Shown: piece after piece, positions 13,031-63,318 of the stretch
Position numbering within the stretch: the first letter of the stretch is position 1
Layout: each line of letters begins with the position of its first letter
Assembly (NCBI GenBank): GCA_021234155.1
Contig: JAJEKV010000011.1
Coordinates: 21,036,677-21,100,676, forward strand
Direction: 5' to 3'
DNA: 64,000 bases
DNA from: Isoetes taiwanensis
Taxonomy: Eukaryota; Streptophyta; Lycopodiopsida; Isoetales; Isoetaceae
Notes under the pieces: model-generated
Seen by the model: the letters and a program-made list of their open reading frames with translations, nothing else
Told to the model about the DNA's origin: nothing
Databases searched by the model: none
Position numbers and translations under genes: made by a program

Positions 13031-13190
<160 letters not shown>

Positions 13191-31040: not shown

Positions 31041-33170
31041 GATAAATGATGGAATGTAGCAAGTTCAAAGATTAGGTTGTAATGTTTCCTTTATTTAATC
31101 ATAGGTGTTTCTTACTGCCCTTTACTGGTACAATTCATATGCATGTATTTTATGCAAGTTGTGTTCCAACTGTGTTGTATCATTTCAAACTTGCCATGTG
31201 AAACATTTGGATTTATATGATAACGACTATGTCATGGTCTTAATTCATGTTCCCAATCAAGTGTTCCGAGATGGTATAAAGATGGGCCAGGCCCTACAGA
31301 GAATGCAATAAAAAATGGCAGAGAAGCTAATAACATCTAACATGCACCGTTATGGTTTTCTAGAAGGCTGGGACAATCTTGATGTTTCAAATCCATCATG
31401 ATGTATGCAGAATTCTACTATCCTTTTGAATTAGCACTTGCATGCTTGCTATAGAGATAATTCTGTATGCTTTAACGCCCAGATGAGCTTAGACTTTCTT
31501 GGTTTTGTATGGTTTAATGCCTAGATGAGCTTATACTTTCTTGAATCCTATATTACTTAGAATTTCAAGGTACTAAGAACGTTTTTATCCTCTTGACCAA
31601 CATATTAAATTTTAACAATGTTATGGCTCTACATCTTTGTTAAGTCATTTTGTGTGGATCAATGAAGAAGACATATTCTGGGAACCCACATGCTTTAAAT
31701 CAATATGCCATTATTTGTGCATAATTAGGCTTGCATTCTTTGATTTAGTATGCAGACAATGGACCAAGTGAATCTCTTTTTCTGATACATTATTGCACCA
31801 AGGTATGTACTTTTTGCACAAATCCAGTTAATGTCTATTTCAGATATATTGCTGCACCAAGATACACATCATATTTGCACAAATTCTAAGTGCGATCTAG
31901 ATTAAAGTTATCATATTAAATCAAACGAATGCATGGCAAATGCTATAAATCTTGATACTTTCTCCACGTTGTTATTATGGAAGCATGTTATGAAGTGCAT
32001 TTGATATACCATTTGTTAGCAATATTTTTGTATGTGTGTTTGATATTGCCATTCATGTCCTTATCTGCAGGTTGATTAGAATCTGGCATCATTTGCAACT
32101 CGGATTGCATTTGCTTTGCTTTGGATTTGTTGGCTTTGGTCTACTACTAAATCTTTGGCAAAATGGATGATTCTGACCCTTCTAAATTCTCCAACCCAGC
32201 TTGAGCAAATCCGGCATTACATTGTGAGCAGTGAGATCTTTCCAAGTTCTAATTTTTTGTAAGCACTCATTTTCGGTGGTAGCATGCATATATAACATTT
32301 ATGGTTTGTTGCAGTGGAGTTTCGTGAAGCTAGGAGAGCCATTTTCTAAAGAGAGCCATTTCCTCTTCTTAGTAGAGCTTTTATTTTCCTTCGATTATTT
32401 TGGATATGCATGCATGCTTTGCACATTATATACCTGGAGTTTATTGCATAGAAGTTTTCTCATATTCATTTTAATGTTGCACAGTTCTCCTTTGCAAGTA
32501 AAATTTTGCATATATTTGGAACTGTATTCTACTATGCATACTAAACCTCTAACGTTTGTATCATTGTTATTGCCTAATTCCTTGAAACATTAACTAAAGT
32601 AATTGAAGGCTACAGCAACCTGGAGATAGAAAAGGCTGTTGAATATCCGTTTGATAGGTGTCCTTTTACAAAGTAAGGTCCGTCCTTGAAGCACTATTAT
32701 TATTTGACATGCTAACTATGGAGTAAAATTTACAGGATCTCCAGGGATTACATGGACCATCCATTGCGGAATATGGTGGCAAGCAAATAGAGAGACACAA
32801 GGAAATTCATGCAGCATAACGGAAGGTAAAAATATTGGATGCATTTTCATTCCTGTCACATATGCACAGTGTATAATTTTCTCTTTTTAAGATTAGTTCA
32901 GATACGAGAGTAGCTCGCTAAGTCATACCACTTCAAAATCAATCTCTCTCAACTCTATTGATGGGTAACTTCCTTAGTTTAGCGCTGATATGTGATTGCC
33001 GCTCATATGTAATTAGTCTGGAGTATTTGTATAATTTGTTTTATGCTCCAAGATGATGCATAAATGTGCAACAAATTGCAACTCAGCCTCAGCATGGGGG
33101 AAAGCTGTCGCTACTTCAAACACAGAACCATCGATGTCTTAAGCTTTATCAAATTTGGCATTTTTATTGG
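31041..33170. other. no gene recognised
   Basis: AT-rich sequence up to the retrotransposon. There is a duplication of about 60 bp near 31470-31540 (GATGAGCTTA[G/T]ACTTTCTTG). Short open frames only. Confidence 0.3.
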
Positions 33171-33175
33171 TCATG

Positions 33176-34768
33176 TGTGACGTCCCCTACTCCTTATACG
33201 ATGCACACATCGTATCCGAAGGAGGAGCATTCCCTCTGACAGCTACACTGACAGGGGCCATCCACCTGACTCCACTCCCAGCGGAATGAGCCAGCAAGGG
33301 AAGAATGGATGTGTCATTCACCCGTCTTCCATCGGGTCGACCTATCTGCGGAAGCGTGAATAACAAACGTGAGCACAACTAACAGTATACAAATACAATC
33401 ACCTCGAGGGGTGAATATAACATAACATCACAGAGATAACAACATCATCATACAATAAAAGGGAAAGAGGATCCTACCCCGGGCTCAGACTCAAGGGAGT
33501 ATGACTGACGGCTTGGGCCTCCAGAAGTCATTGCAGACAGAATTCATGGCAATGGATTTGGCTGGCATAGAACATGGTTTGGGTAGTCCACTCCATCCGC
33601 CCCTCCCGTGCACACTTTGCAGAATAGGTTGAAAAGCTTTGGGACCCAACCGTAGCCTGCCGGGTGAATAGCCAGAGGGGCCACTACTACTGGGTTGCAT
33701 CTCCCCAGTCCCGATGAGGCAGGAGGGAAGTCACCTCCCCTCCAGAAGCATCCATGCCCTTCACAGGCGGCTAGAGAGCCACTGCTCTTGTTCGACTTGA
33801 ACTCACTGGAAGGCGACGCATCGCCCCACGAGTGTCGAGCTCATGCCTTGCCCACACGCAGTGACAAGCCATTAAGCCTAGCCCGCATAGACCCCCGGTA
33901 GGCCTTACACACCAGAGGGGTCGGTCTGTGTAGGGACATGTTCTTCCTTATCAGCCGGTCGGATTCCTCCACCCACAACCAGGCGGGCTCCTGTGCACGG
34001 GCCGCATGTAACTGGGAACTAAGGTGCTATTCTAGGAGCATCTACTACTCAGCCTTTAGGTCTCTATCCCCCCCTTCCCCATACATGGAGATCACAGAGT
34101 GAAATACATCCAACATCATAGAACTGAAATAGAGAATAACATCTAAACTATCTAACTACATAACAGGGTTAGGTTCCTTTGTTAGAGCTTCAGATCTCGG
34201 GATCTACAAGGCCTCTAGAGATGATCTAACATGCTAAACCGGCATATTGCCATGCCCAAAGACGGTTTTGCACAACAGAATGACTAGATACCTGCTCCTT
34301 GACTTGCTCCTGATCATCGGAAGGCGTCCATGTTCCCCGATCTTGTTGGAGATGGCTGCTACTTTCGATGGTCTCATTGTGCAAATCGCTTTCCCGAAGC
34401 CTAGCAATGCGAATTGGAGTCCTACCTTGGCCGAAATGGCCCAAGAGAACCCTAATTGCGAAAAATGGGAGGGAGCTCTAGAAAAACCCTAAATGGCAAA
34501 ACAAAAAGAGAGCTAGGGTCTAGGGTTTTAGCCTTATATAGAAACCCTTAGGGTTAGGTTAGACATTGGCCAAATGGGATTTGGCCATTTGGCAATGGGG
34601 TCCATGGGGTTATTAATTGTGTATGTTTATTTAACATGCACAACATTCGATGTTGCCCCCTAGGTGCAACCCTATACGTCTCGCGAGTACATGTCATCCG
34701 TGGCATGTACGGGTGACGTGGCAGTATAATATACGTATTCGGGCCGTATATTATGCTGGAACGTCACA
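33176..34768 (-). repeat. 3-prime LTR of the chromovirus
   Basis: 1593 bp with TG...CA ends. It is a copy of 46116-47709 differing by scattered substitutions and 1-4-base indels. A TATA box (CTATATAAGG on the minus strand) lies at about 34533-34543. Confidence 0.95.
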
Positions 34769-34780
34769 TTCTCTCCACCT
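34769..34780 (-). promoter_or_regulatory. polypurine tract
   Basis: The minus strand reads AGGTGGAGAGAA immediately before the LTR start TGTGACG, the position where plus-strand DNA synthesis is primed in LTR retrotransposons. Confidence 0.85.
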
Positions 34781-35573
34781 TGACTTGATGCTGTCCTCAG
34801 CATCACGCGTCTCCCCACCTTGGCAAACTGCATGCCCTGCAATCACAACAACTTATATAGCAATGTTATAATTAATCACCTCCGGTACTATTATAATTTG
34901 TGCTATGGTGAGAGGCTCTTTCGTCCTCTACTTCATCATTTATTATTGACAAAATTAACATCAATTATAATTCAAAAGTTTCTGGCGACCTCACAACAAA
35001 TTATGGCAAAATTATGTGTTGTGAGTCCTCGTAGTGTCATCTTCCTGCCGCTCAAATCTCCTATTGGCCTGCAGGTTAGACACTACATCAGTACAAGTTT
35101 AATTATTATAACGGTTGGTTGTAAGGGAACCACCCATTAAATACAATTATATGAATGCAAGGCATATCTCTCGGCATAGGAAGATTATGTTTCTTCCATC
35201 ATGGCCGTGGAGATAGTGCCCTATCATGCCTATATGCCACTCATGCCTACACCTGTAGTTGCACCACGTGGGAGCTAGGTCCTTCCCGTATATGGGGCGT
35301 GAAGGGCCTTCCCCGTAGGCATTGACTAGAGGTGTTTTTCCTATGATGCATTCCTGCATGGCCTCTTATCTCTCAAAGCGGCCTATTTCCGTGGAACAGA
35401 AGTAGGCCTTCTAATCTACCTTCCACTCGTCCAAGCGGAACCGCGGTCATGCCTACAATGACATTACACCACGTCCTAGAGATCACCGTAGTGGTCTCAT
35501 CATCGGTAACAACGCATGCAACCCATACGCAAGCATAGGCTGCATGCGTAGGCTAATCTTAGCTACACATGAC
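34781..35573. other. retrotransposon 3-prime untranslated region
   Basis: Non-coding stretch between the end of the chromodomain frame and the polypurine tract. No other feature seen. Confidence 0.6.
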
Positions 35574-35755
35574 TTAATTCGAACCCCAAATCGACATGCC
35601 TGAGCCGATTTCTTGGTTGTCGATGTCCACTATTTCGGTGACGAGTTGACCCTTGCATTGCTCCATGAACTCGGGGTACTCCTTCTTAAGATCTGATTCA
35701 AGTACCCACGTAGCGTCTTTCACTGGTAAGTGCTTCCATTTCACAAGGTATTATT
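35574..35755 (-). pseudogene. chromodomain of the chromovirus integrase, separated by a frameshift
   Basis: The minus strand encodes [20 protein letters not shown], then LKKEYPEF, and ends GSN-stop at 35574. This is a chromodomain core, the module that guides chromovirus integration to particular chromatin. It lies just after the pol frame but in another frame; the shift is near 35750. Confidence 0.85.
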
Positions 35756-38700
35756 GAGAAATTTTGACCTTCTTGTCTTCTTATAAGATCTATTAAGAAG
35801 GACTTCCGGGACGATTTCAAGGTGCTCGTCCGTCATTTCCAATAACTCCTTTGTCTCCAATACTTCCTCTGGATTAGGGGTGTGCTTCTTTAAGAGACTT
35901 ACGTGGAAAACATTATGGATCTTCAAATGAGCTGGGAGTTTCAATTTGTAGGATTGGGTACCTACTCTTTTGATTATCTCGAAAGGACCAGCCCATCTTG
36001 GAGCAAGCTTCTTGCAATTGCCGATGCGGAGCTTGGCCTGCTTCATCTTGATCTTCAACCATACTTTGTCTCCTAACTTAAATTCTCTTACTGTCCTATG
36101 CTTATCAGCTATGCTTTTCTGCCTGCTTCTTGCTGCTAGGAGGTATCCTCTCACCTCCTCCACCAAATCTTGCATCTCTGAAAACATCTGCTGGGAGATC
36201 TCTACTTTGGACACAGGATTGTGCCACGTATCCGGGGTAAGACACTGATACCCGTAGTTGATCATGAAAGGACTCATCTGCGATGACTCCTGCTTTGTGT
36301 TGTTGTATGCAAACTCTACTAAGTGGATGAAATCTTCCCACTTAGATTGTTTGTTCCATACGTAACTTCTTAACATATCTTCGATGATCATGTTGGTCCT
36401 TTCCGTCTGACCATCTATTTGGGGATGATATGCCGTGCTCATCGAAAGCTTCGTCTGGATGGTGGTGAATAGGTCCTGCCAAAAGGCACTCATGAACTTG
36501 GAGTCCCTATCTGAAATTATCTCCCTTGGCATACCATGGAGTCTGAAGATCTCCTTAACAAATAAATTGGCCGTGTCTAGAGCCGTATCTGTTGTTCTGC
36601 ACGGCACAAAGTGTGCCATCTTTGACAACTTATCTACTACCACCATCAAGGCGTCCTTGCCCCTTGCTGTTCTTGGGAGTCCTATAATAAAGTCCATACT
36701 TATTACCTCCCACTTAGCGTTTGGCACGGGCAATGGTTCCAGAGCACCTGGAATTTGTAGCTGTTCCGCCTTTGTCTGCTGGCATGTTTGGCACTCACGA
36801 ATATACCTTGCTATTTCCTTCTTCATGCCGGGCCAGAAGTAACTGCTTCTAATTTTGAAGTACGTCTTCATGAACCCTGCATGCCCTGCTATGGGACTAT
36901 TGTGTGTATCGTTCAAGATTAACTTCCTAACTTGCGAAGATTTTGGTACACACAATTTGTTCTTATGGTATAGCAAGTTTCCCTCCTTCTTGTAGTGCCT
37001 GAACATTTCCCTTTCCTTGTCGGTTCTGGCCTCCTTGCAAAGGCTTGCCCACACTTCCTTGAAGTCGAGGTCCGTTGGCAATTCCTCTTCAATCTTCTTG
37101 CCAAACTCGCTTACGAGTGTTGATATGGCATTACAATGAATTCTTGTTGCCAAAGGTTTCCTAGAAAGGACGTCCGCAACTACATTGAGCTTACCTGGCT
37201 TATAACTTATCTCAAAGTCATATTCTTCTAGGAATTCCATCCATCTCCTTTGCCTCAAATTGAGGAGTGGTTGTGTAAATATGTATTGAAGGCTTTGATG
37301 ATCCGTATCTAGCTGGAATCTTCTTCCCAATAGATAATGCCTCCAAATTCTTAAAGCTCTTACTATAGCCAGGAGCTCCTGATCATGCGTTGGGTAGCGC
37401 TGCTCCGCGTCGTTCAACTTCTTGGAATCATAGGCTACTACTCTTTCCTCCTGCATGAGGACTGCACCTGTTGCTATCCTGCTAGCGTCTGTCGCTACTA
37501 GCTTATCTTTGGTCGGGTCTGGCAAGACCAATACTGGCGCTGTCGTCAATGCCTCCTTCAACGTATCAAATGCCTTCTGGGCCTTGTTTTGCCAATGGGT
37601 TGCCCAATCTTTTATTTTTCCCCCTTTTGTGAGATCAGTTAATGGTGCTGCTACCTTGGCAAAATTTTTCACAAATCTTCTATAATAGCCTGCTAGGCCT
37701 AGGAAGCTTCTGACTTCATGCGTATTCTTCGGTGCCGGCCAATTAATCACGGCTTCGATCTTCGCAGGGTCTGTGGAAATGCCTTCCGCTGTGATCACAT
37801 GCCCTAAATACTCTACTCTTTCCGTCGCGAAGTGGCACTTTGATAACTTCGCAAAGAGGTGATGCCTTCTTAGCTTTTCAAGCACCTTTCTCAAATGCTG
37901 GGCATGTTCTTCCATAGACTTGATGTACACCAAGATATCATCGAAGAAGACTATGATGAAGGAGTCTAGAAACTCGCGGAAGACGTCGTTCATCAATCTC
38001 ATAAACGTTGCTGGCGCATTAGACAATCCAAAAGGCATGACTGTGAACTCGTAGTGCCCATATCTTGTTCTGAACGCCGTTTTGTGGATGTCTTCCTCCT
38101 TGATCCTGATCTGATGATACCCTGATCTGAGATCTATTTTGGAGAAGATCTTTGCTCCCTGCAATTGATCCATTAGGTCATCTGACCTAGGCAAGGCATA
38201 CTTATTCTTAATGGTGTGCTTGTTTAACTGGCGGTAGTCGATGCACATCCTAAGGCTCCCATCCTTCTTCTTCACCTTGGGGATGGACTGCAGAAATTGC
38301 CTCACCGCTTTGGAGTAGTTAGAGCCGCTCCCTTGCTCCTTGAAGCTTACCTGTTTCTTTTCCTGCTTGCCACCATTTCCATTTCCTTGCTTCCCATAAT
38401 TGGGGTTGTATTGCGGTCTGCTGGCTACTGGACTTGCCGCCCTTGGGCTATAGCCTCTTGTGTTTTTCCCTTTATCCTGGAAATATTGCTGCCTTGGAGT
38501 ATGCTCTTGCGGTCCGGTCCCTTGTAAACTCACTGCCTTGGATTCTGCTTCTGATACAGTCTTGGGGTTTATTGCCCTAACAAACTTGCGGATCTCTTCA
38601 TTCAGCCCCTCGATATAGCCCTCCACTGCGTGTCTTTCACTTAGTTTTGGTACATATAGCCTCAGTCTCATAAATTCTTCTGTGTATTTCTGGACTGATT

Positions 38701-38761
38701 TGTTGCCTTGCTGCAACCTGTAGAACTGCTGCATCATGTTGCACTTATGTTCCCTTGGCAC
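35741..38761 (-). CDS. chromovirus Gag-Pol fusion, open for 1006 aa, protease region missing
   Basis: Gag C-terminal part first (residues 1-150: [24 protein letters not shown]..., [22 protein letters not shown]). The frame then passes directly from [17 protein letters not shown] into RT at [17 protein letters not shown] (about 165). RT carries [12 protein letters not shown] and FFDDILVY (about 270). RNase H spans about 420-540 ([21 protein letters not shown]). The integrase finger is near 610-665 (H...H...CQTCQQTK), and the DDE core has [20 protein letters not shown] and [13 protein letters not shown]. The GPF/Y-like end is [13 protein letters not shown]. The gag zinc knuckle, the protease and the RT N-terminus are absent without loss of frame, an internal deletion. 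The frame starts inside gag, so 38761 is not a true start. Confidence 0.93.
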
Positions 38762-40605
38762 GTAATGGTGTTTGAATGCTTTAGCAAACTTCCTGAACTT
38801 GCAACTATTTTTTTTTTTTTTTTTTTGAAGGAAAGAAATTTTTTATTAAAAGATAGGAAGAATTACAGCATAGGTCTCACATAGACCAGATAAAATTTAA
38901 GCACAAAGATCTCATATAGATCAGATTTCATATCCAAAATTTCTGTACTAATCTGCCTTTCTCAACATCTTCTTCTATCTATCCAGTACTACATGATTAA
39001 AACCAATCTTCCTGGTTAGATAAAATACTACAGGAGCTTAGCACAAGCTTTCCAGAAACTGTAAATAAGTCGTGAATGCTCCAAAAACCTTCTTGCAAAA
39101 CTAAAAATGAAGAGAAAAGAGCTAAAGAATAATCTGACCAATTCTCCCGCACTGCTCAGAGAAGCCCAACTGCTTCAAACTATGATCTGATTCTGCAATT
39201 TTTCTACAGAATGCAAAATTGAAAGGAGATGCTGCATTGTCGGGATGTGCCAGTCAGCCAACCTGTAAAGCTAGACACACAGCCCAGCACCAAAACCTCC
39301 CTAAATTTTGGTTCATGATATCTGGATCGATATGGAAGCGTCTTCCTGGACACAGTTATCTCCCTAGCTCGGCAATCTCAGAAAAATTAAGCATCCTGTT
39401 TCTAAACTGTAAAGTCGAAATCAAGAATTTACCCTGACTCCTTCCGTTAACAACATTCTTAGATCTTTCCACTAGAAAGAAAGAGCAAGAGGAAGGGGAA
39501 AAAGCCAAAGATTCAAAAGATCCACCATAGATTAGACTTTAATATATTTACATGAGAACCAACATCTCTTTATGTTTCTGCTAAAATCTGCTACCTTATA
39601 GGCTGTATGCCTTTTCGGATCTTGATAAACAAGAAAATGGTAAATTCAGAAAACTTACATGATCTTGCTCATCTGCTTTAGCAAATCGGGCCACGTTAGT
39701 GGCATCAGGCAAAAACATTAGGACCGCCTTGAAGCAGTTTCAGGCAAGCAATCCGGAACATTCTTTAAAAGATAAGAAAGATCCACTTGAATTTGATGGC
39801 AAAACCCCGCTAGTATCCGGTTCTATCTCTGATCTGCAAGGAGTTCTGAGGCAGTGCCGGAATCAGGGAAGAGGAGGGCGGCGTCCTCTCCTCTTGCCGC
39901 CCTAGCCGCAAGCGGAGGCAACAGCGCCAAGAAGCATTTTCCGCTCCATCACATTTGTTCGAACTTGCAACTATCTCTACTCAGCCCATGTGCTTTAGCG
40001 TATCCCTTTCACCATATTCTGGCTGCCCCCTTGAGGTTTGTTGTGGCTACTCTGCCTTTGTCCTTATCCTTCATGCCGTACGCGTTTCCATACTCGCTCA
40101 TCTCGTCGAGCCAAGCTTCCGCTTCCATTCCGGATCTATTGTCTCCTGAGAACTACTCTAGCTTTCTGGCTTTCCACACATTGCTAAGCGCGGAATCAAC
40201 TTTCTTCTGATAATCAGATTGTGATCTATCTCTGTCACGTGGGTTCTCCCGGCGTTCTCGTCTCTGTTCCTCTGATTCTTCTGATTCCGAGTCCGTGTCT
40301 GAGCTAGAGTCCGAGGACCCTGAACTAGGAGATCTTCTCCTTCGGCTTCTCTTTCTCTGGTGTACTGTCCGGCCAGCTGGTGTTTCAGGCAAGGTAACAT
40401 TCTGATCTTGCCCTCCTGCTCCTGCTGCACCTGCTAGCAATGCTCTTATGTCATGGATGTCAGATCTGATCTGGGATAGCTCTTCCTCCGGTGTTACTGC
40501 CTCAAACTCTCAGATTTCTGGGCTGGAAGCGCCTTGGTGGGGAGCGCTCCTGCTCACGTCATCTCTGTTCATCAAGATTTCTAGGTACTCTTGCTGCATG
40601 CACAT
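38762..40605 (-). pseudogene. chromovirus gag, N-terminal part, with stops and LINE insert
   Basis: Possible starts ATG 40605 or 40599 (MQQEYLEILMNRDD). An acidic/serine and arginine-rich region follows (RKRSRRRRSPSSGSSDSSSD, SESEESEEQRRERRE). Next come YQKKVDSALSNVWKARKLE, a stop, EAEAWLDEMSEYGNAYGMKD, another stop, and AKAHGLSRDSCKF up to the LINE. Past the LINE it resumes [18 protein letters not shown] into the pol frame. At least three in-frame stops make it non-functional in this copy. Confidence 0.88.
38809..39960 (-). mobile_element. 5-prime truncated LINE-like retroposon inserted in gag
   Basis: A 14-bp target-site duplication, GAACTTGCAACTAT, flanks it (38795-38808 and 39961-39974). 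On the minus strand it ends TTTAATAAAAAATTTCTTTC and then a poly-A tail, seen as T's at 38808-38827. The inserted 1152 bp has no intact frame. The AT-rich 3-prime end with AATAAA close to the tail is typical of plant LINEs. A retroposed gene copy is the alternative. Confidence 0.8.
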
Positions 40606-40749
40606 TAGAGTGAGTTCTGATCATTAGTTTCTTGTTTTGGTTGTTACGTTGTTTGTTTGTTCATGCACTATGAGGGAACAATTGTATGCAAAAAGACATG
40701 TATTTACGGTCATAATTTATATTCATATATCTATCTACTCTATGTATGT

Positions 40750-41045
40750 TCTTATGTTTGTCGCGCTTATCCGACCGTCCGTTCGAGATCCGACGGCTCA
40801 CATGGCTTTGGGACGTATCCTACGACCCAGATGGCCTGGGAGTTTATATATAATTCGTATAAACGCGATCCTACGGTCCAAGTTGATTTGATCCTGATCG
40901 TCGGTCCGAGATCCTACGGCTCACGTTGCTTTGGGACACATCCTACGGTGTACATGACTTTGGGAATTATATGTAATAGATCCTATGGCTCATGTTGCGT
41001 GAGATCTCGACCTTGATCGAGTCCAAGATCCTACGGCCCAAGTTG
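40750..41045. repeat. GATCCTACGGCTCACGTTG repeats in the gag leader
   Basis: Words of the type GATCCTACGG[CT]YCA[CA]GTTG with CTTTGGGACACATCCTACGG recur five times. A TATATATAA box on the minus strand at about 40838-40850 lies about 240 bp before the gag start. Confidence 0.7.
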
Positions 41046-41084
41046 AATGCTCATCCCTTAGGAAAAGGCTTTTAAAATTTTTAC

Positions 41085-41156
41085 GTTGTGTGGGGGATTT
41101 GAACCCTGGCCATTAACCCCCCCAACCCCCCATTCTAACCACTAGACCAAGCATTA
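41085..41156 (-). repeat. tRNA-like sequence (A and B boxes)
   Basis: The minus strand reads TGCTTGGTCTAGTGGTTAGA (A box) and, about 40 bp later, GGCCAGGGTTCAAATCCCCC (B box and T-arm). The middle is a G-run stretch that does not form a normal anticodon arm. It is probably a tRNA-derived repeat within the retrotransposon leader, not a working tRNA gene. Confidence 0.5.
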
Positions 41157-41228
41157 ATTCCATGAAAACTTTATGTTTCAGATATACTTAAGGGTAATCT
41201 TCACATTAAGATAAAATAGACTATAACA

Positions 41229-41480
41229 TTCTAGCTAGTTCAAGAAGGTTTTAGAATGTTCTGGAAGGCTCTAGAAAGTTCTAGAATCTTCTAAAAAGTT
41301 CTAGAACATAAGAGAATCTAGGGGGGCGTCTAAGAAAATTCTTCCAGAAAGTTCCAAATTGTTCTAATAAGTTTTAGAATGTAGGGGAATCTACGGGAAT
41401 GTAAGGAAATCTAGGGAAATATTTCCAGAAAGTTCTAGAATATATTGAAAGTCTTAGAATGTTCCAGAAAGTCTTAGAAT
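41229..41480. promoter_or_regulatory. extended heat-shock-element-like array
   Basis: From 41229 to 41306 the 5-bp units nTTCn/nGAAn alternate in register. The perfect core GAAAGTTCTAGAATCTTC is at 41274-41291, and 14 of 16 units can be placed with few mismatches. Further TTCCAGAAAGTTC and TTCTAGAA groups follow to about 41480. Heat-shock factors bind such units. It lies in the leader between the second extra gene and gag. It could equally be a 10-bp minisatellite that happens to have this form. Confidence 0.5.
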
Positions 41481-41905
41481 GTTCTAAAAAGTTATAGAAT
41501 GTAAAGGAATCCAGAAGAATTTAATAGAATGTAAGAAAATCTTATAAAATGTAAGAGAATCTAGGAAAATATTTACAAGCCTAAGGGAATCTCTTAAAAT
41601 CTGGGGGATCTAAAGGAATCTTCATAAAATCTAAGGGAATCTAAGAAAATGTTGATGAAATCTTAGAGTATCTAAGGGAATCTTTATAGAATCTCTTTGA
41701 ATCTCATGTAATGTAAGGGAACCTAGGGCAATATCATAAAATCTAAATGAATCTAAGAGGATCTTCATAGAATCTTGGAGAATCTAGGGAAATCTAATAG
41801 AATCTAGAGGGAATCTTATAAAATTTAGAGAAATGCTCACGAACCCTCTAAGAGAACCTTGGTAGAATCTTAGAGAATCTATCAAGAGATTCTTTTACAA
41901 GAACT
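41481..41905. repeat. GAATCTAAGG minisatellite
   Basis: Degenerate repeats of about 10-20 bp built from GAATCTAAGG and AATCTTCATAAAATCTAAGG. They grade into the TTCTAGAA array on the left. Confidence 0.75.
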
Positions 41906-42185
41906 TGCACGTAGGAACATGCTAAAACTCGAACATGCACCGTAGGACGCATTAAATTTCTTGTATATATATACTATTGCTTTTACATGCAATATATATA
42001 TAAGAGAGACATCTTTATTTTCTATTCCTGAAATTCCTTGAGGTAGTCGGGGTGGTCCTCCAAAAATTTCTTCACTTGGGCCGTACCTATTGGTCCGCCT
42101 AAGTTCCTGAGGATGTTTGCTGTCGTTCCTCCTTGGAGTGCTGCCTCTACGTCTTCAATTCTTCTTTCTGATGTGTATGCGGCTG

Positions 42186-42690
42186 TCACTGCCAACCTGC
42201 CCTGTCGCCTGTAGGGAACTGCGAAGTCGAAGATAGAAATGCAATCGCTCTCTTGATCAGGATAACATGATCGATATTTGGCGCTAATCGAGCATGATTT
42301 CCAAACCCTGAGAGAGCGATAAGCATAAAGACCCCTTCTTCGCCTCGTGGGCTAAATTGGCGGTGGATGACCGCTATTCTTCCATCCAGCAGCAATGGCA
42401 GATAGTATCTGAGTGCTTTATCATGCCCTGCTTGTTCTGCAGACGAGGAAGTTGCCCTGTGCCTTCCTGCGTAGTCGTCCACTTGCACCTCCTCTAGCTC
42501 TCTGAAGTCTTGGTGCACCAGCTTCCTTAGATTGATGCTGCATGCTGTCCTGGCGTTGCTGCCGACGAGCTGGGTAAGAGTGCTGATGTGGACTTGCCCC
42601 TGATGCCCATTTGTTCCTGGATTGCCAAGAACTCTTCCTCCAAGGGCAATTCTCTTTCGGCCATCATCTGCCTGATGCCTGCATAAGCCT
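42186..42690 (-). pseudogene. downstream continuation of the second extra gene, frameshifted
   Basis: After the stop of the acidic-protein frame, another minus-strand frame reads EAYAGIRQMMAERELPLEEE and ends near 42520. A third (to 42186) reads RKLVHQDFRELEEVQVDDYA, then RYYLPLLLDGRIAVIHRQFS and FMLIALSGFGNHARLAPNID. These look like parts of one longer protein that lost frame twice. No family recognised. Confidence 0.45.
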
Positions 42691-43524
42691 CTATATCCGA
42701 TGATGTGTCCTGGCTTCCCTTATGCTGGTAGGGAAGTCTTGAGCTTCTCGATCAATGAAGTCGTCGAGGTCTGCTTGCTGCCGTAGGAGATGTAAAATCT
42801 CATCCACTCTGAGGCCTCTGTCACGGCACTGTGGAAGATTCTTAATGTCATGGAGGGTTAGATATGCCTCACCTGCTATGAACACCGGCGTCAGGCTTGT
42901 GATTCCCTGCCCAAGTGGTGGGGCTCTTCTTGTTGCTCTTAATCCTTCCTCGAAGTTTTGGATCTGCTGCTCCGCCTGCTGTCTCTCTTGCTCCAGGTCC
43001 ATGTCTTCCGGGTCTGACTCGTATTCTTCTTCCTCTTCTTCTTCTTCTCCCTCTTGCTCGTACTCGAGGCGCATCCGTTCTTCTTCTGCTGCTGCCATGG
43101 CCATGGGTTCAACTTCTAAAGGTTGAACTGAGGGTTCGCCTATCTGGGTTTGACCCCGAAGAGATAGAAAGATGGCTACAGCTGCTGTATAGGAGAAGTA
43201 TCTCCTCCTATTGACAGAGATGGACATGTAGTTGGGTAGACGGACTGCTTTATTCTCTAGGTACTTGTCCACGTTGGGGATATCCCGCAGGGCTGACTTG
43301 AGGGCCGTGTTGGGTGCAAAATATCCTATACAAGGTGGGAGTTCTACCAAAGACGGTCCTATCTTGGTATGGAACTCAGACATGATGCTCTGGTAGAAGG
43401 GAGTGGCATTGATGGTAGCTTCTATGTCAAGTTCCCTCTGGAAGATACTGAAGACAGATTCGACGTCGGCTTCGGCCACATGAGTTGTGGCGTTGTACCA
43501 TCGCTTGAATGCAGAAGTGGCCAT
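42691..43524 (-). CDS. unidentified acidic protein, second extra gene of the chromovirus
   Basis: 277 codons from ATG 43524 (MATSAFKRWYNATTHVAEAD). This is the first ATG after a TATA-like box at 43634-43643; the frame is open further upstream but without an ATG. Residues 1-130 look folded (VESVFSIFQRELDIEATINA, SISVNRRRYFSYTAAVAIFL). Residues 146-185 are a strongly acidic run with EEEEEEEE and SDPEDMDLEQE. The remainder is helical (VDEILHLLRQQADLDDFIDRE). I recognise no family. An acidic tract beside a histone-like gene could suggest a histone-binding role, but that is only a guess. The protein probably continued into the frames at 42186-42690. Confidence 0.6.
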   Translation of the reverse strand: MATSAFKRWYNATTHVAEADVESVFSIFQRELDIEATINATPFYQSIMSEFHTKIGPSLVELPPCIGYFAPNTALKSALRDIPNVDKYLENKAVRLPNYMSISVNRRRYFSYTAAVAIFLSLRGQTQIGEPSVQPLEVEPMAMAAAEEERMRLEYEQEGEEEEEEEEYESDPEDMDLEQERQQAEQQIQNFEEGLRATRRAPPLGQGITSLTPVFIAGEAYLTLHDIKNLPQCRDRGLRVDEILHLLRQQADLDDFIDREAQDFPTSIREARTHHRI

Positions 43525-43633
43525 GATCACTGAGGAACTGGGGATGACAGACGGATGGGGAAGCGCCCTAAGGACCTGAGAAATCGGCTTGGAGCAGAGA
43601 GCAAGGGTGTAAGGCACAAATGACCCTTGGGTT

Positions 43634-43643
43634 CCATTTATAG
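43634..43643 (-). promoter_or_regulatory. TATA-like box of the acidic-protein cassette
   Basis: CTATAAATGG on the minus strand, about 110 bp before ATG 43524. It is followed by AAACCC/leader-like sequence without an ATG. Confidence 0.55.
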
Positions 43644-43816
43644 GCGAAACCCTAATTTTTGGAGAAATTTTAGGTTTGCAGTTGTCTGAAGTTCTAGGAT
43701 CTAGAGGTAGAATTCATAGGCTAACTGAGCTCGGGAATAGATTCTAAGGGTCCTAAGGCAATAATTTTGGTTCATCTAAGGAAAAACTGGTCAATTTTGG
43801 GTCAATTTGGGCGTGA

Positions 43817-44093
43817 CCACTCACACAGTGCGCCAGAGCAGGATTGGTTTAAAACCGAATTGGTCTGGGTGCACTCTGTGAGGGGTGGGGCTCCATTTGG
43901 CTTGGAATTGGCCAATTTCTACAAGCTAGGGGTCAAATCCTGCTAGCTAAGGTGAGCCAAGTCGAATGGTATATCTACTTTCTGCATTTGGTCAAGATTT
44001 GGCATCAAACCATGCTCGACCACTCACACAGTGCGCCAGGGTAGGATTGGTTTAAAACCGAATTTGTCTGGGCGCACTCTGTGAGGGGTGGGG
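43817..44093. repeat. pair of ~72-bp hairpin repeats upstream of the acidic-protein gene
   Basis: Two copies, 43817-43888 and 44020-44093. Each starts CCACTCACACAGTGCGCCAG, has GATTGGTTTAAAACCGAAT at the centre and ends GCACTCTGTGAGGGGTGG. The halves are imperfect inverted repeats, so each can form a hairpin. Two further copies stand before the H3-like gene. Confidence 0.88.
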
Positions 44094-44233
44094 CCAAAAA
44101 CGCTGGGTTTTGCTCCAAATTTGTTGCTTCCAAGTACAGAATTCAGTAATACATCCTACTTACTCTCAATTTGGCTTATTAACTTATCCAAATTACAAGC
44201 TTATATTAGAAAAAGAGTTTATCTACAACAGTT

Positions 44234-45391
44234 TCAAAATGGCTCCTTCTTAATATATGAAGCTAGTCTCATATCCTTGGGCATGCAAGTTACTCTCTTG
44301 GCGTGCTGGGCACACGCAACAGAGTCTTCGAAGTGTTGTACGATTTTCTGCTCCGCCGCCTCCTGCAATGCCAGCAGCATGTCATCCGTAACCCGTTTAG
44401 TCGGGTCGAACTCTTGCAAAACCTCTCTTAGGGATGAGGAGGCCAAAACTCTGCTGAAAGTGCTTGATTTCTTTGGCCGCCCTTGAGAATCTTGAGTCCG
44501 CACTTCTCTTCATTGGCTTCTTTGGTGGCTCTGGTTTCTCAGGTGGTGGCTTGAGTGTATTTTTCTTTGTGGGCCGACTTCCTTCGATAATTCTCACCCT
44601 ATGCTCTTCATAATACTTGGAGTATTCTTCGTGCATTTTCATGAACGAATTATACTCCTTCAACTCCTTCCGGTACTTGAGGTCTTGTTTGAGCACATAC
44701 GACTCCCTTTGTGGCCTCGGCTTCTTCGTGCTGTCGCTGGGATGTTTCGGCGACGGCCACCTAGGGTATGGCGGTGCATTTGCCACAACGTCTTCTGGTT
44801 CCTGCACCCAGAGCCCTCAGCTTGGTCAGGTCTCCTTGCTTCCTCTGGCTCACTGTCAGACGAGGACGGCGGTTTCTCCGGGTCTGGCTCCTGGATCACT
44901 ACGCCCTTGGCCGGCGTCCTCTTCTTGGGCGGTTTCTCCGCCGGCTGCTCCGGGTCCTTACCTTTCTCCTCTCTCACTCTCTCCCGTTCTTCCCTGCGCT
45001 TCCTATTTTCCTCCCTTCTCTGTTTCTTCTCTTCCTTCTTCTTGCGCCGTTCCTCCTTTTCTTGGCGACGCTCCGCCTTGGTTTTGTTCTTCTCGCCTTC
45101 CTCTCTTTTTCTCTTCCCTTTCTTCTGTGCTTGCTCTGTATCCTCGTCATCTCCAAAGATCTCCCTGTACAGCTCCCTCCTCAATTCCTCCGCCGCGTCC
45201 ATCTCCCAATTGAGCTGCTCCGACACCTGTTCCTGTTCCTGCTCTTGGGGGTTAGGGTTAGGTTGGTCTACGGGTACCCCCTCTTCGGCATGCGCCTGGT
45301 TTGTTCGGGCCTTCTGTCGGACGGCCCGCTCTTGGGCGCTCACATAACCGGGTGGCATAACTTTGCGGGCGGTCTGTTTCGTTCGTGCCAT
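44234..45391 (-). pseudogene. histone H3-like gene carried by the retrotransposon, frame-broken
   Basis: The first ATG after the TATA-like box (45391) opens MARTKQTARKVMPPGYVSAQ. Residues 1-9 after the initiator equal the H3 tail with R2, K4, R8 and K9; S10 is replaced by V. A long lysine/glutamate-rich, helical linker follows (about 250 residues with KKRTPAKG, SSSDSEPEE). The end is an H3 histone fold: KEIKHFQQSFGLLIPK (alpha-N), REVLQEFDPTKRVTDDML (alpha-1 and loop 1, of canonical rather than centromeric length), LALQEAAEQ, FEDSVACAQHAKRVT and CMPKDMRLASYIKKEPF to the stop at 44234. Two breaks exist in this copy. A shift near 44810 lies in the linker. A small deletion between LLIPK and REVL (near 44430-44450) removes the start of alpha-1 and shifts frame. 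Separate short introns are a less likely explanation. Confidence 0.85.
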
Positions 45392-45491
45392 GCTTTTGTT
45401 TGACAAGTTTCGAGCTCTGGCGCCTGAAGATCGTTTTCTTTTGCGAGCTGTTCTCCGGGGAGGGTTGGGATACAATAGAAACCCTAATTTT

Positions 45492-45502
45492 CTATTTATA
45501 GG
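45492..45502 (-). promoter_or_regulatory. TATA-like box of the H3-like cassette
   Basis: CCTATAAATAG on the minus strand, about 100 bp before ATG 45391, with no intervening ATG. It resembles the box of the acidic-protein cassette in sequence and spacing. Confidence 0.6.
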
Positions 45503-45612
45503 GAGGTAGGATTTAGGGTTGGGACCTGCAATTCATATGGGGGAAAAGAAAACTAGGGCATTAGTGAAGATGTGAGACGTTCATTTGGGTTTATTATGCT
45601 ATAAAACATCCA

Positions 45613-45898
45613 CCACTCACATAGTGCGCCTGGGTCAGTTTGGATTGCAAATCGAATGAGCCTGAGCGCACTCTGTGAGGGGTCATCTGTTTTTGAGGCT
45701 ATTTTACAATTCACAAGGGTTTTCTTAATGTTATAATATGCAAACCCAGCTAGAACTAAGGAGATAAACTGAACTACACTATTAGTTTAATTAATTTATA
45801 CCTCTAATTAGGTCAAGGGGGTCATCCACTCACACAATGCGCCAGGGCCAGTTTGGATTGCAAACCAAATGAGTCTGGGCGCACTCTGTGAGGGGTGG
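45613..45898. repeat. pair of ~72-bp hairpin repeats upstream of the H3-like gene
   Basis: Two copies, 45613-45683 and 45826-45898, of the CCACTCACA...GCACTCTGTGAGGGGT hairpin. The centre here reads TTTGGATTGCAAA(T/C)C in place of TTTAAAACC. They lie between the primer site and the TATA-like box. Confidence 0.88.
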
Positions 45899-46102
45899 CC
45901 TGCTTTTGGGCATTTTTGGTTTGGGTCATTACTACAGTTAACTAGCGGCCTAGCATTGAACTATGTTCTAACCCAGAATTGGAAAAGATTTTCCCAATTT
46001 TTCGAAGTTCTTGCTTGGGTGGTTGTACCCCAAGGCTTGAATCTACTGTTAGTCCTACGGGAAAAAAAATGGCCAGTGCTCAATCTTGGCTGCCAAGATC
46101 AT

Positions 46103-46114
46103 GCTCTGATACCA
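46103..46114 (-). promoter_or_regulatory. primer binding site for initiator tRNA-Met
   Basis: The minus strand reads TGGTATCAGAGC one base inside the 5-prime LTR, the standard complement of the initiator methionine tRNA 3-prime end. Confidence 0.93.
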
Positions 46115-46115
46115 C

Positions 46116-47709
46116 TGTGACGTCCCCTACTCCTTATACGATGCACACATCGTATCCGAAGGAGGAGCATTCCCACTGACAGCTACACTGACAGGGGCCA
46201 TCCACCTGACTCCACTCCCAGCGGAATGAGCCAGCAAGGGAAGAATGGATGTGTCATTCACCCGTCTTCCATCGGGTCGACCTATCTGCGGAAGCGTGAA
46301 TAACAAACGTGAGCACAACTAACAGTATACAAATACAATCACCTCGAGGGGTGAATATAACATAACATCACAGAGATAACAACATCATCATACAATAAAA
46401 GGGAAAGAGGATCCTACCCCAGGCTCAGACTCAAGGGAGTATGACTGACGGCTTGGGCCTCCAGAAGTCATTGCAGACAGAATTCATGGCAATGGATTTG
46501 GCTGGCATAGAACATGGTTTGGGTAGTCCACTCCATCTGCCCCTCCCGTGCACACTTTGCAGAATAGGTTGAAAAGCTTTGGGACCCAACCGTAGCTGCC
46601 GGGTGAATAGCCAGAGGGGCCACTACTCTTGGGTTGCATCTCCCCGGTCCCCGATGAGGCAGGGAGGGAAGTCACCTCCCCTCCGTAAGCATCCATGCCC
46701 TTCACAGCGGCTAGAGAGCCACCGCTCTTGTTCGACTTGAACTCACTTTGGAAGGCGACGACGCCCCCACGAGTGTCGAGCTCATGCCTTGCCCACACGC
46801 AAAGGACAAGCCATTAAGCCTAGCCCGCATAGACCCCTAGTAGGGCCTTACACACCGGGGGGGTCGGTGCGTGTAGGGACATGTTCTTCCTTATCGGCCC
46901 GGTCCGTTTCCTCCACCCACAACCAGGCGGGCTCCTGTGCACGGGCCGCATGTAACTGGGAACTAAGGTGCTATTCTAGGAGCATCTACTACTCAGCCTT
47001 TAGGTCTCTATCCCCCCCTTCCCCATACATGGAGATCACAGAGTGAAATACATCCAACATCATAGAACTGAAATAGAGAATAACATCTAAACTATCTAAC
47101 TACATAACAGGGTTAGGTTCCTTTGTTAGAGCTTCAGATCTCGGGATCTACAAGGCCTCTAGAGATGATCTAACATGCTAAACCGGCATATTGCCATGCC
47201 CAAAGACGGTTTTGCACAACAGAATGACTAGATACCTGCTCCTTGACTTGCTCCTGATCCTCGGAAGGCGTCCATGTTCCTGATCTTGTTGGAGATGGCT
47301 GCTACTCGATGGTCTATTGTGCAAATCCGGCTTTCCCGAGCCTAGCAATGCGAATTGAAGTCCTACCTTGGCCGAAATGGCCCAAGAGAACCCTAATTGC
47401 GAAAAATGGGAGGGAGCTCTAGAAAAACCCTAAATGGCAAAACGAAAAGAGAGCTAGGGTCTAGGGTTTTAGCCTTATATAGAAACCCTTAGGGTTAGGT
47501 TAGACATTGGCCAAATGGGATTTGGCCATTTGGCAATGGGGTCCATGGGGTTATTAATTGTGTATGTTTATTTAACATGCACAACATTCGATGTTGCCCC
47601 CTAGGTGCAACCCTATACGTCTCGCGAGTACATGTCATCCGTGGCATGTACGGGTGACGTGGCAGTATAATATACGTATTCGGGCCGTATATTATGCTGG
47701 AACGTCACA
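46116..47709 (-). repeat. 5-prime LTR of the chromovirus
   Basis: 1594 bp. A promoter TATA (minus strand CTATATAAGG) lies at about 47473-47483. Differences from the other LTR are scattered (for example CCACTGAC versus CTCTGAC near the start and several 1-4-base indels around 46.6-46.9 kb), so insertion is fairly recent. Confidence 0.95.
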
Positions 47710-47714
47710 TCATG

Positions 47715-48870
47715 TAGATATATTGTTCTGCTATGTATATTTGATGTAGAAGACTGTTTCTGTACATAACGATGGGTGAAAGAAGTAGGCAAAGTATTTT
47801 TCACATGCAGCTCTGATCGCGGTTCCGGAGGTCTAAACAAAGCTGCAATTAACAAATAGAGTTTAGAAGAATTGTCTTGCTTTGAATCTTGATAGACATA
47901 TGTGCATCAATTGGCTGATGTGCAGCAACACTGGAAGCAGATGCAAGTGTGGTAAATGTCTCATAAACATTCTACCCTTGACACAGAGTCTAATTCCATT
48001 ACATGTACATTACTCTCCTTGGTATTCCATCTGGTTCATGCATATCTCCCTTATATAGGGTTGTATTTTAATTCTATTTATCAGCTTGATTCTAACTATG
48101 CACAGGCAAATCAAGGGTGCAAAATTTGGTGTTTTTGATAAGAAGGTAACCTAATATGAAGACCAATAATCAATGTTATTGAACTTGAGACCTTTTAATT
48201 GCAACATATGTGCCCGCTCTTAATACGGAAGCCCTATATAAATGCACCTCTGACAGTCGTTGATACATCGTTGTTACATCAAATTACATGCAATACAATG
48301 AAAGTGCATAAAGAGGAGACAATTTTTGGAATTTAGGATTGGTTACCCAATTAGCTCTCTTTAATTAATGTAGTCAATACAAACTAAACTAACAAATGCG
48401 TTTTCAAATTGGTAACATGAATTTGCCCTCATTGTCGAAGCATCATTGTTGAACATTCATGTAATAGAAAAACAATGACACAATTGGTTATTCTACTGCC
48501 TACAAATGAGTGCATTATTCTTGGACTTTTACTTCTTGGCACAAGATCTACGAAAATACACGCGCCTACTTATGCGTGTAAACTGTATGTTTGTTCGTCT
48601 CGATGTATTATTATTCTCGAGTCATGAATGGTAGCAACTCTTCTAAGGATCAATTTAAGATTTAAGATGATCCTACTTATGTGCGACAAGGCCATGCACC
48701 CATTTACTTTGAAAATCCATCATTTAACTGCAAAATTAATACATTGATGATACTGCCATTAGACAATTTCGACAACAGAAATATTTACATAAGCAAATCA
48801 TGTCCATTCTTGCAAGTGTCAACCTGTGATGTTCACAGACGTTGTAGAATGAACATTAAATGCCAAGTAA
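47715..48870. other. no gene recognised
   Basis: AT-rich right flank of the retrotransposon. Its left continuation is at 33170. Short open frames only. Confidence 0.35.
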
Positions 48871-50383: not shown

Positions 50384-50933
50384 ATAAGCATCAAACTTGA
50401 TAATCAGCCGTGTAGGCTTTCATGCTATAGATATTCAGCTGTTCAAATTTGTTTGTCAAACTGATGTTCTCTTCCAACTCCATTAATGTGGAGGACTCTG
50501 AGCATGGTGTATAACCTTAACATGTCTGTAAAACATTTGTGCTTAAAGGGAATGTGCTAAAGTAAAGTATGAAATCTTGAACCTAGGTTGCCTGATGAGC
50601 AACATCATATAATTTCAGCGTTCCAGGGAGAATCTCTCAAACTAACCAGATGCATAGCAGTCTGCCTAGGGCCTGCAGTCAGATTCCTAGATTAAGCATA
50701 ATAACGCATAAGATGTTTTGATACTGGAATTAGCATACATAGAAGTAAATACAAGTGCATTTGCAATTCTTCAACTCATGTGTTAACAGAACAGCCTGAT
50801 TTAAACAACATATAACAAAATGTTCCTACATTCTATGAAATAGTAGTAGCAAAATCCTTTTGGCAGCTGAATAAGCACCACAGCTACAATAAAACGTGAC
50901 ATACTCTTGAAGCTTCCAGTAAAGATATCGACA

Positions 50934-51688
50934 CTACTTCTTCTTGCCAGCTTTTTGTGCCTTCTCACCAGAAGCTTTTGTCTGCATTGTCATTTACACA
51001 ATTAGGCCCATGTGTCTGGAACAGTATCTAAGAATTAGATAACAATACCTTCTTGACTCCACGAATTTTCTTTGCCCTATTTTTCCTTTCCTTCATTTGC
51101 TTCCTTGATTTCTCAGTTCTTGTGGCAAGTCCATTCTACAAATAAAACATCACAACTGAAGGGTCCTCATATCCAGTCCATTTAAGCAAATAGTTAATGT
51201 ACATACCCGCACTAAACGATACTTGGGTTCAAACTTCTTCGCAGCATCAAGACTATCGTATATCAAACCAAAACCGGATGACTTCCCACCTCCAAACTTG
51301 GTCCGCAAACCGAAAACAAAAACTGTTTGTGGATCGCGTACTTCATACATTCTTGCAAGCTTTTCCCTAAGCTCAGCCTATGACAACACAAAAATATACA
51401 TTCAAAACAGCTTCTAATGGAGCGAAATCAAACAGCAGCACTGCAAATAATGATACACTCAAAATTCCAGAACAGCATACCTTTGACACATTTGGCCGAC
51501 CGGGATGAAGAACATCAACGACCTGCCCAACAGATAGAGAAACACAAATTATTAATCAGTCAAAAAAAGGAAAAACAACGCCAACCCTTCGAACGGAGAA
51601 AATGAGCACTCACAAACTGCTTGCGTTGCAGCAATCTGTTAGTCATGAACTTGCGTGTACGAACTGTGTAAGCTTTAGCGTCCGCCAT
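50934..51688 (-). CDS. RPS24: ribosomal protein eS24, copy 1
   Basis: Structural protein of the small cytosolic ribosomal subunit. Five exons: 51688-51614, 51522-51481, 51377-51207, 51135-51049 and 50981-50934 (coding parts 75, 42, 171, 87 and 48 nt). All introns are GT-AG. Product of 140 aa: [80 protein letters not shown] and a basic C-terminus ending KAGKKK. Length and motifs are those of the family, and the frame is unbroken. An identical product is encoded by copy 2 in opposite orientation 6 kb away. Only about 60 bp of matching upstream sequence precedes the ATG here before unrelated GATCC-rich DNA, so its promoter may be altered. Confidence 0.97.
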
Positions 51689-51769
51689 AGCTGATCCTTT
51701 GGACGCAAACCCTAGGTTTTGCAAAGTTAGGGTTAAGGCTTTTTCCACGGGAAGATTGTCTTAAAATTT

Positions 51770-57780: not shown

Positions 57781-57833
57781 CTGTCCAAAAGTTAGGGTTT
57801 GCGTCCAAGCTCTGCTGCGCCCCAGGATCAGCT

Positions 57834-58588
57834 ATGGCGGACGCTAAAGCTTACACAGTTCGTACACGCAAGTTCATGACTAACAGATTGCTGCAACGCA
57901 AGCAGTTTGTGAGTGCTCATTTTCTCCGTTCGAAGGGTTGGCGTTGTTTTTCCTTTTTTTGACTGATTAATAATTTGTGTTTCTCTATCTGTTGGGCAGG
58001 TCGTTGATGTTCTTCATCCCGGTCGGCCAAATGTGTCAAAGGTATGCTGTTCTGGAATTTTGAGTGTATCATAGTTTGCAGTGCTGCTGTTTGATTTCGC
58101 TCCATTAGAAGCTGTTTTGAATGTATATTTTTGTGTTGTCATAGGCTGAGCTTAGGGAAAAGCTTGCAAGAATGTATGAAGTACGCGATCCACAAACAGT
58201 TTTTGTTTTCGGTTTGCGGACCAAGTTTGGAGGTGGGAAGTCATCCGGTTTTGGTTTGATATACGATAGTCTTGATGCTGCGAAGAAGTTTGAACCCAAG
58301 TATCGTTTAGTGCGGGTATGTACATTAACTATTTGCTTAAATGGACTGGATATGAGGATCCTTCAGTTGTGATGTTTTATTTGTAGAATGGACTTGCCAC
58401 AAGAACTGAGAAATCAAGGAAGCAAATGAAGGAAAGGAAAAATAGGGCAAAGAAAATTCGTGGAGTCAAGAAGGTATTGTTATCTAATTCTTAGATACTG
58501 TTCCAGACACATGGGCCTAATTGTGTAAATGACAATGCAGACAAAAGCTTCTGGTGAGAAGGCACAAAAAGCTGGCAAGAAGAAGTAG
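57834..58588 (+). CDS. RPS24: ribosomal protein eS24, copy 2
   Basis: Five exons at 57834-57908, 58000-58041, 58145-58315, 58387-58473 and 58541-58588, with the same exon lengths and intron positions as copy 1 and the same 140-aa product. Introns are also nearly identical; one visible difference is ATGAGGATCC here against ATGAGGACCC in copy 1. The upstream region (57760-57833) contains TTAGGGTTT and CAAAAGTTAGGGTTTGCG, like the telo-box motifs common in plant ribosomal protein promoters, and keeps GCTCTGCTGCGCCCCAGGAT before the ATG. It is the better candidate for the ancestral copy. Confidence 0.97.
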
Positions 58589-61215: not shown

Positions 61216-61340
61216 CCAAGTGTCTCTAGGTTCATACGAGCTCTTGTAGAAAAGCCACTCTCACAATTATCCCAAATTGGTTGATATCATAATATATACA
61301 AGAAATTTATGGCGGCGGTGCAAACACTTATGAGGAAAAT

Positions 61341-63282: not shown

Positions 63283-63318
<36 letters not shown>

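Follow-up and report, generated by a model that had tools for sequence, protein, structure and literature searches.

A histone H3-derived gene within a Ty3/gypsy retrotransposon of Isoetes taiwanensis

Introduction

A histone H3-like gene, H3L, has been described in a hAT DNA transposon of the fungus Pyrenophora tritici-repentis, for which the accessible portion of the report gives 26 nearly identical copies and known ESTs (PMC3538342). Among viruses, the available sections of two further sources describe single H3 histones of DNA viruses that are 75–87% identical to cellular H3 (PMC9145170, in the main text of which the words ‘retrotransposon’, ‘LTR’ and ‘retrovirus’ are absent) and a bracovirus H4 that is incorporated into host nucleosomes and, through its long tail, changes host expression (PMC5423620). 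Plant LTR elements have additional or extra ORFs (aORFs or eORFs), including an eORF-5'F class, and the domains named for them in the consulted portions of these sources are the plant mobile domain, Transposase_28, Athila ORF-1, SMC-type and transposase-like domains (PMC7264820, PMC6317226); the word ‘histone’ is absent from the main text of the additional-ORF review (PMC7264820). Ty3/gypsy elements of orchids, according to excerpts of PMC9289625, carry an ORF for an m6A demethylase (AlkB-like), and the group II chromodomains of chromovirus integrases are, in the accessible parts of PMC3350952 and PMC6317226, without aromatic-cage residues and have no known partner.

Here, we describe an H3-derived gene, ORF1, that lies inside a Ty3/gypsy retrotransposon in a 64,000-nucleotide stretch of Isoetes taiwanensis DNA (hereafter the window, meaning the whole stretch analysed; G+C, 41.7%). 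An earlier note on this DNA held that no described LTR element carries an H3 gene. None was found in the open-access literature, with the extra-ORF domain table of PMC6317226, which could hold one, outside the scope of that search; the statement is thus not contradicted for LTR elements, but an H3 has been described in a DNA transposon (PMC3538342).

Results

The Ty3/gypsy element

The features that define a Ty3/gypsy element, namely paired LTRs, a target duplication, a primer site and the order RT, RNase H and integrase, are all present on the minus strand of the window, and the element comprises the following parts.

33176–47709, minus strand: Ty3/gypsy element, 14,534 bp including a nested insertion, delimited by the LTR pair and target duplication
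46116–47709, minus strand: 5-prime LTR, with ends TGTGACGTC...GACGTCACA and TGTGACG at 46116
46103–46114, minus strand: primer binding site TGGTATCAGAGC, read from the sequence, after the 5-prime LTR
35744–40509, minus strand: gag-pol remains with nested insertion; RT, RNase H and integrase by Pfam
38808–39973 (approximate), strand not given: insertion in gag, with poly-T at one end and flanked by the repeat GAACTTGCAACTAT
35600–35800 (approximate), minus strand: chromodomain remains, from a translation read by eye, frame broken
33176–34768, minus strand: 3-prime LTR, identified as one of the LTR pair by BLAST

The target duplication TCATG occurs at both outer flanks, and the primer site TGGTATCAGAGC is presumably of the initiator-Met tRNA type. 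In gene order, the 5-prime LTR and primer site are followed by a pair of inverted repeats and ORF1 (H3-like), then by a second pair and ORF2; a long stretch of low coding content separates these from gag-pol and the 3-prime LTR. A stretch of degenerate AATCT/AGAAT repeats occupies 41200–41900, between ORF2 and gag. Pfam domains follow one another as RVT_1, RT_RNaseH, integrase zinc-binding and rve, and the frame at 35741–38842 includes gag, RT, RNase H, the integrase zinc-binding domain, the integrase core and an SH3-type integrase domain. Gag runs directly into mid-RT with no protease between them, and no protease was found in the gag-pol remains by Pfam or in the translation of the element. 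This copy cannot be autonomous: gag is interrupted by stops and by an insertion of 1.1 kb, no protease was found and the frame of the chromodomain is broken. At the C-terminus of the integrase, where chromoviruses have their chromodomain, there is a 15-residue stretch, read by eye, past a frame break; these remains look like group II, and the lineage bearing ORF1 may be chromovirus-like.

The element was inserted recently. Its LTRs share 97.3% identity across 1604 aligned columns (BLAST), they differ by 32 mismatches and 13 gap events when aligned globally (1584 ungapped columns), and the divergence corresponds to an insertion age of 0.8–1.5 My under two assumed substitution rates. The differences are bunched, with 41 of 45 falling within two blocks that total 436 of ~1596 columns, so that the true age may be lower; such bunching is a hint of either conversion or a local error in the assembly, and some of the lesions may therefore not be real. 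From the LTR differences, ~4.8 indels and 11.7 substitutions would be expected since insertion for a stretch the length of ORF1, and because the expected indels exceed the two frame breaks observed, ORF1 may have been whole when the copy moved. The ORF1 protein is no longer made by this copy.

The window contains several other mobile sequences. A second set of Ty3/gypsy remains (12648–16003, minus strand) includes a long GA run and two stretches that are 74–77% like the pol of the ORF1-bearing element, with no accompanying H3-like gene (tblastn within the window). Ty1/copia pol pieces are found at 61293–63762 (plus strand), and the minus strand also has a Replitron-type HUH endonuclease ORF (18773–20068; Pfam Replitron_HUH, E 2.7e-16), a PIF/Harbinger-like transposase (10434–11963; DDE_Tnp_4, E 1.5e-28) and a Psq/DDE_1 transposase of the pogo/Tigger type (7421–8455; HTH_psq, E 1.1e-08). 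A sequence of 1174 nt is also present twice in inverted orientation (50525–51698 and 57824–58997), the copies being 99% alike and 6.1 kb apart, and the first of them includes a gene that by visual inspection looks like ribosomal protein S24.

ORF1 joins an H3 tail to an H3 fold

The H3-like gene is divided as follows.

44234–45391, minus strand: ORF1, H3-like gene, in three frames (translation, Pfam and structure search)
45362–45391, minus strand: H3 tail MARTKQTARK, first frame
44493–45361, minus strand: linker of ~290 codons (translation)
44430–44492, minus strand: alpha-N and start of alpha-1, RFSRAAKEIKHFQQSFGLLIP, second frame (weak in Pfam, E 0.012)
44237–44428, minus strand: rest of alpha-1, alpha-2 and alpha-3, third frame (Pfam, structure search and alignment)

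Several statements of the earlier note hold for this gene: it starts with MARTKQTARK, identical to H3 at 10 of 10 residues including K4 and K9; V stands in place of H3 S10 in the first frame, where the tail continues as VMPPG and H3 has STGGK; a long charged linker follows (K/R/E/D, 61 of 90 residues in the densest measured part); and the LTRs, primer site and Pfam domains place the gene between primer site and gag, within the mobile unit. One correction concerns continuity: there is no single open frame, and two breaks divide the gene among three frames. The first frame (45391 to ~44807) encodes the tail and charged linker, the second (~44816–44430) the remaining linker and helices alpha-N/alpha-1, and the third (~44428–44234) the remainder of the fold. 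The first break is near 44807–44816, and the linker is stop-free except for the two frame breaks. At the alpha-1 break, ~20–23 nt of the helix are absent relative to H3, and the break can be placed in two ways, with the second frame read through KRGFARV or the third frame read from REVLQEF, on which depends which of K64, F67, R69 and R72 counts as kept. In H3 a tail of ~40 residues is joined directly to alpha-N; here ~290 codons lie between the two, so ORF1 is H3-derived and no ordinary H3. That an H3-derived gene resides within the mobile unit is well supported.

Profile and structure searches bear out the histone fold previously proposed for the C-terminal piece, in which the motifs LALQEAAEQ, FEDSVACAQHAKRVT and CMPKDMRLA are all present. 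With the third-frame piece (44509–44237, 91 codons), the Histone profile of Pfam scored 51.8 bits (E 1.2e-13; cut-off, 26.4) and H3 chains among solved structures were matched at E 5.5e-13, and the best 60 of 182 solved-structure matches are all named H3 or histone, none CENP-A. A chance match as the source of the histone likeness is excluded. The second frame aligned to positions 10–61 of the Histone profile below the cut-off (E 0.012, 16.3 bits) and no histone was matched by this piece among solved structures; it ends RFSRAAKEIKHFQQSFGLLIPKRGFARV, spaced as alpha-N and alpha-1 of H3. In the alignment, the C-terminus of ORF1 stops at the same residue as H3.

The third frame retains R83, C110, H113, K115, R116, T118, K122, D123 and L126. 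Five fold substitutions relative to H3 (Y99K, L103H, L109A, R129Y and K79D), the first three of which hit positions invariant among the H3 types compared, make pairing with H4 uncertain; judged from the alignment, some contact residues would be kept and others changed. When the third-frame piece was modelled from its sequence alone, helices were placed at residues 24–34, 42–69 and 80–86 (mean pLDDT, 67.5; pTM, 0.41), and the layout in this weak model resembles a histone fold with a long middle helix. When the model was searched with Foldseek, the best 50 of 449 matches were all histone or nucleosome entries, two of the matches reached E <= 0.001 and the best had E 8.8e-4, probability 1.00, TM 0.51 and rmsd 6.3. 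Given the low pLDDT and pTM, and these TM and rmsd values, the packing of the model is unreliable, while the assignment to the histone family is reliable.

Origin among H3 types

The affinity of ORF1 was explored with reference sequences of H3.1, H3.3, human H3.1, CENH3 and CENP-A. For the third-frame piece, plant H3.3 was the best match (33 identities in 62 residues, score 148), followed by H3.1 (32 identities) and human H3.1 (31 identities), and over shorter stretches it matched CENH3 at 26 of 45 residues (score 116) and CENP-A at 24 of 43. The 27-residue alpha-N/alpha-1 piece was instead best matched by Arabidopsis CENH3 (11 of 17, score 56). Judged against 500 shuffles, for which the maximum with CENH3 was 38, this score lies above all of them, and the scores of 33–37 for H3.1, H3.3, human H3.1 and CENP-A lie inside the shuffle range. 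Plant H3.3 is distinguished by residues 31, 41, 87 and 90. ORF1 has L90 as in plant H3.3 and D87 as in neither type, with no counterpart of 31 and 41. The longer loop 1 and divergent tail by which CENH3 is recognised are both lacking in ORF1, in which the tail is that of H3 and loop 1 is as long as in H3, lacking the two residues by which it is extended in the reference CENH3. On these alignments, the origin of ORF1 leans towards H3 or H3.3, with a short stretch that appears CENH3-like.

A second extra gene and repeated upstream signals

A second extra gene, ORF2, lies downstream of ORF1, and the region ahead of each gene has a similar set of signals.

45826–45895, minus strand: inverted repeat 1, upstream of ORF1 (fold z −4.21)
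45613–45682, minus strand: inverted repeat 2, upstream of ORF1 (fold z −2.95)
45492–45500, minus strand: TATA box TATAAATAG, candidate internal promoter, 109 nt upstream of the ORF1 ATG
44020–44088, minus strand: inverted repeat 3, between ORF1 and ORF2 (fold z −5.49)
43817–43885, minus strand: inverted repeat 4, between ORF1 and ORF2 (fold z −3.75)
43634–43642, minus strand: TATA box TATAAATGG, candidate internal promoter, 118 nt upstream of the ORF2 ATG
42022 (approximate)–43524, minus strand: ORF2, frameshifted, between ORF1 and gag

ORF2 had no Pfam or NCBIfam family above cut-off, and its single-sequence model (mean pLDDT, 44.7) was unusable for function. The four inverted repeats share arms, with eight arm matches within the window against 0.06 expected, and each folds well by itself. 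Across 16 pairs in the four copies, two one-sided changes keep pairing and one breaks it, with no two-sided change; an RNA structure is thus not supported over a DNA palindrome, and Rfam gave no match at E up to 1 within 33000–48000. Because paired changes are lacking, we infer that the repeats are DNA sites, with one pair ahead of each of the two putative internal promoters. Each TATA box is close to an AAACCCTAA box. The motif TATAAATRG was found three times in the window, where 1.65 are expected and 25 of 100 shuffles reach three, so that only its position is suggestive. With a TATA box and an inverted-repeat pair ahead of each, both extra genes may be transcription units of their own. The ORF1 ATG has G at +4. 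The 724 nt from primer site to ORF1 contain 11 upstream ATGs and the 709 nt from ORF1 to ORF2 contain eight, which disfavours translation by simple scanning from genomic RNA.

Tests for selection

Kept residues were not significantly in excess at constrained sites of the fold: from alpha-2 to alpha-3, 14 of 21 invariant sites were kept compared to 14 of 27 variable sites (p 0.23), and with a looser cut the values were 20 of 30 and 8 of 18 (p 0.11). When neutral change was simulated from H3.3 to equal divergence, 22% of 1500 runs were stop-free at the length of the fold, so an open fold alone proves little. For the tail, retention of all nine residues after Met at the rate of the fold has a probability of 0.003, a simple yardstick that assumes equal rates. 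The strongest hint of constraint comes from the exact tail beside a fold that is about half changed, and the part it singles out is the tail.

No second copy of ORF1 was found within the window (tblastn). No relative was confirmed for the second- or third-frame H3 pieces in a viral collection (viral_contigs), nor for ORF2 or the third-frame piece in a prokaryote collection (genome_contigs); plant elements are not expected in either, and the absence of relatives there says little.

Discussion

We tentatively read ORF1 as an H3 gene that a chromovirus-like Ty3/gypsy lineage captured and converted into a chromatin-acting accessory protein, a reading that we place slightly below an even chance. 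The protein would be made from its own promoter, by means of the TATA box and the upstream inverted-repeat pair, and would enter the nucleus. A nuclear protein with its own promoter is reportedly encoded by the extra ORF of Grande, a plant LTR element. The fold would then pair with H4 or dock on nucleosomes, and the long linker arm would display the unaltered ARTKQTARK tail, which could engage host readers or writers of H3K4 and H3K9, with the outcome that either the integration complex is drawn to chromatin or the silencing machinery is diverted from the element. The tail, acting as bait, is the likeliest working part.

Three roles had been put forward for the gene in the earlier note, of which mimicry of the H3 tail is the best supported, as the tail is kept at every one of its ten residues compared to 33 of 62 in the fold; packaging of the element's DNA is possible, and action in concert with the integrase chromodomain is weakened, that domain being group II-like and broken in frame. 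As the chromodomain remains look like group II, which is without cage residues, we do not favour a direct reading of the element's H3 tail by the integrase that it encodes. With a (broken) chromodomain and an H3 gene, the element would combine a part of the reader type with one of the tail type. A fuller scheme, in which an LTR lineage runs its own H3 transcription unit, the fold serves as anchor and the linker as a long flexible arm, the unaltered tail baits host K4/K9 readers and writers, the chromodomain also reads chromatin and the result is steering of integration or escape from silencing, is on balance somewhat unlikely.

Passive transduction, in which the transcript of a host H3 variant was picked up by a single element or subfamily and carried without use to it, is unlikely but has several observations in its favour, as the one copy seen is broken, no significant excess of kept residues was found at constrained fold sites and, in the accessible sections of the additional-ORF review, genes acquired by transduction usually occur as one or a few copies (PMC7264820). 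An unused passenger would not account well for an exact tail in a gene with a fold about half changed, for a ~290-codon linker that has no H3 counterpart yet is stop-free besides the two breaks, or for the position of ORF1 in an ordered array with ORF2, the upstream region of which is alike. The arrangement of ORF2 also argues against a host H3 gene or pseudogene having landed in the element, as do a linker unlike host H3 and, on reading the ORF1 region, the lack of a poly-A tract or flanking repeat that a retrocopy would have. The bunched LTR differences could be local assembly error and the frame breaks may be errors too, as an assembly chimera would have it, but we regard either of these, landing or chimera, as highly improbable.

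Derivation from centromeric H3, with ORF1 steering the element to or away from centromeres, would fit the alpha-N/alpha-1 piece, which exceeds all shuffles in its score to CENH3; it is nonetheless quite unlikely, as H3.3 is the better match from alpha-1 onward, loop 1 has the length found in H3, the tail is that of H3 and not the MARTKH... of the reference CENH3, and the best of the solved-structure matches (60 of 182) do not include CENP-A. A protein that packages the cDNA or RNA of the element in the particle, and is not directed at chromatin, would suit the combination of a charged linker with a histone fold and a position upstream of gag. Such a protein would have no need of an exact ARTKQTARK tail, Pfam revealed no gene like H4 or H2A/H2B among eight translated pieces of the element, the upstream signals of ORF1 suggest that it is expressed independently of gag, and Y99K, L103H and L109A alter otherwise invariant positions; we consider this role very unlikely.

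Should ORF1 prove to be under selection in other copies, the element would be a retrotransposon that bears a histone, beyond merely reading histone marks. In that case it could be tested directly whether mimicry of the histone tail is a means by which transposons counter silencing in plants, and nature would have provided an experiment on whether the tail or the fold is the part of H3 that a selfish element keeps.

Comparison with known systems

Going by the available portion of its description, H3L resembles ORF1 in being an H3-like extra ORF of a transposable element that lies beside another ORF of unknown function, in having insertions in the N-terminal tail and in matching neither H3 nor CenH3 in full (PMC3538342). 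The two differ in that H3L belongs to a fungal DNA transposon with 26 copies, whereas ORF1 belongs to an LTR retrotransposon of which one copy was seen, and in that ORF1 has the first ten tail residues exact and ~290 codons between tail and fold (compared with the same sections of PMC3538342). The viral H3s and the bracovirus H4 are likewise host-derived histones in mobile or viral genomes (PMC9145170, PMC5423620, each as far as its accessible text goes); the H3s are found in DNA viruses, with no long insert named in the available sections (PMC9145170), and the bracovirus H4, acting via its tail, may by analogy be a viral precedent for the role proposed for the ORF1 tail. Among plant LTR elements, the aORFs and eORFs share with ORF1 the position of an extra sense ORF 5-prime of the polyprotein, as the parts consulted describe them (PMC7264820, PMC6317226). 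The orchid elements are, in the excerpts available, a Ty3/gypsy lineage that gained and kept a host-type functional domain, but that domain is an RNA demethylase, present in several subfamilies and with activity shown in vitro (PMC9289625). The chromovirus integrase chromodomain, as the accessible text of PMC3350952 presents it, is an element-encoded protein part aimed at chromatin, as ORF1 would be, with the difference that the chromodomain is a reader of histone marks and ORF1 is itself derived from a histone.
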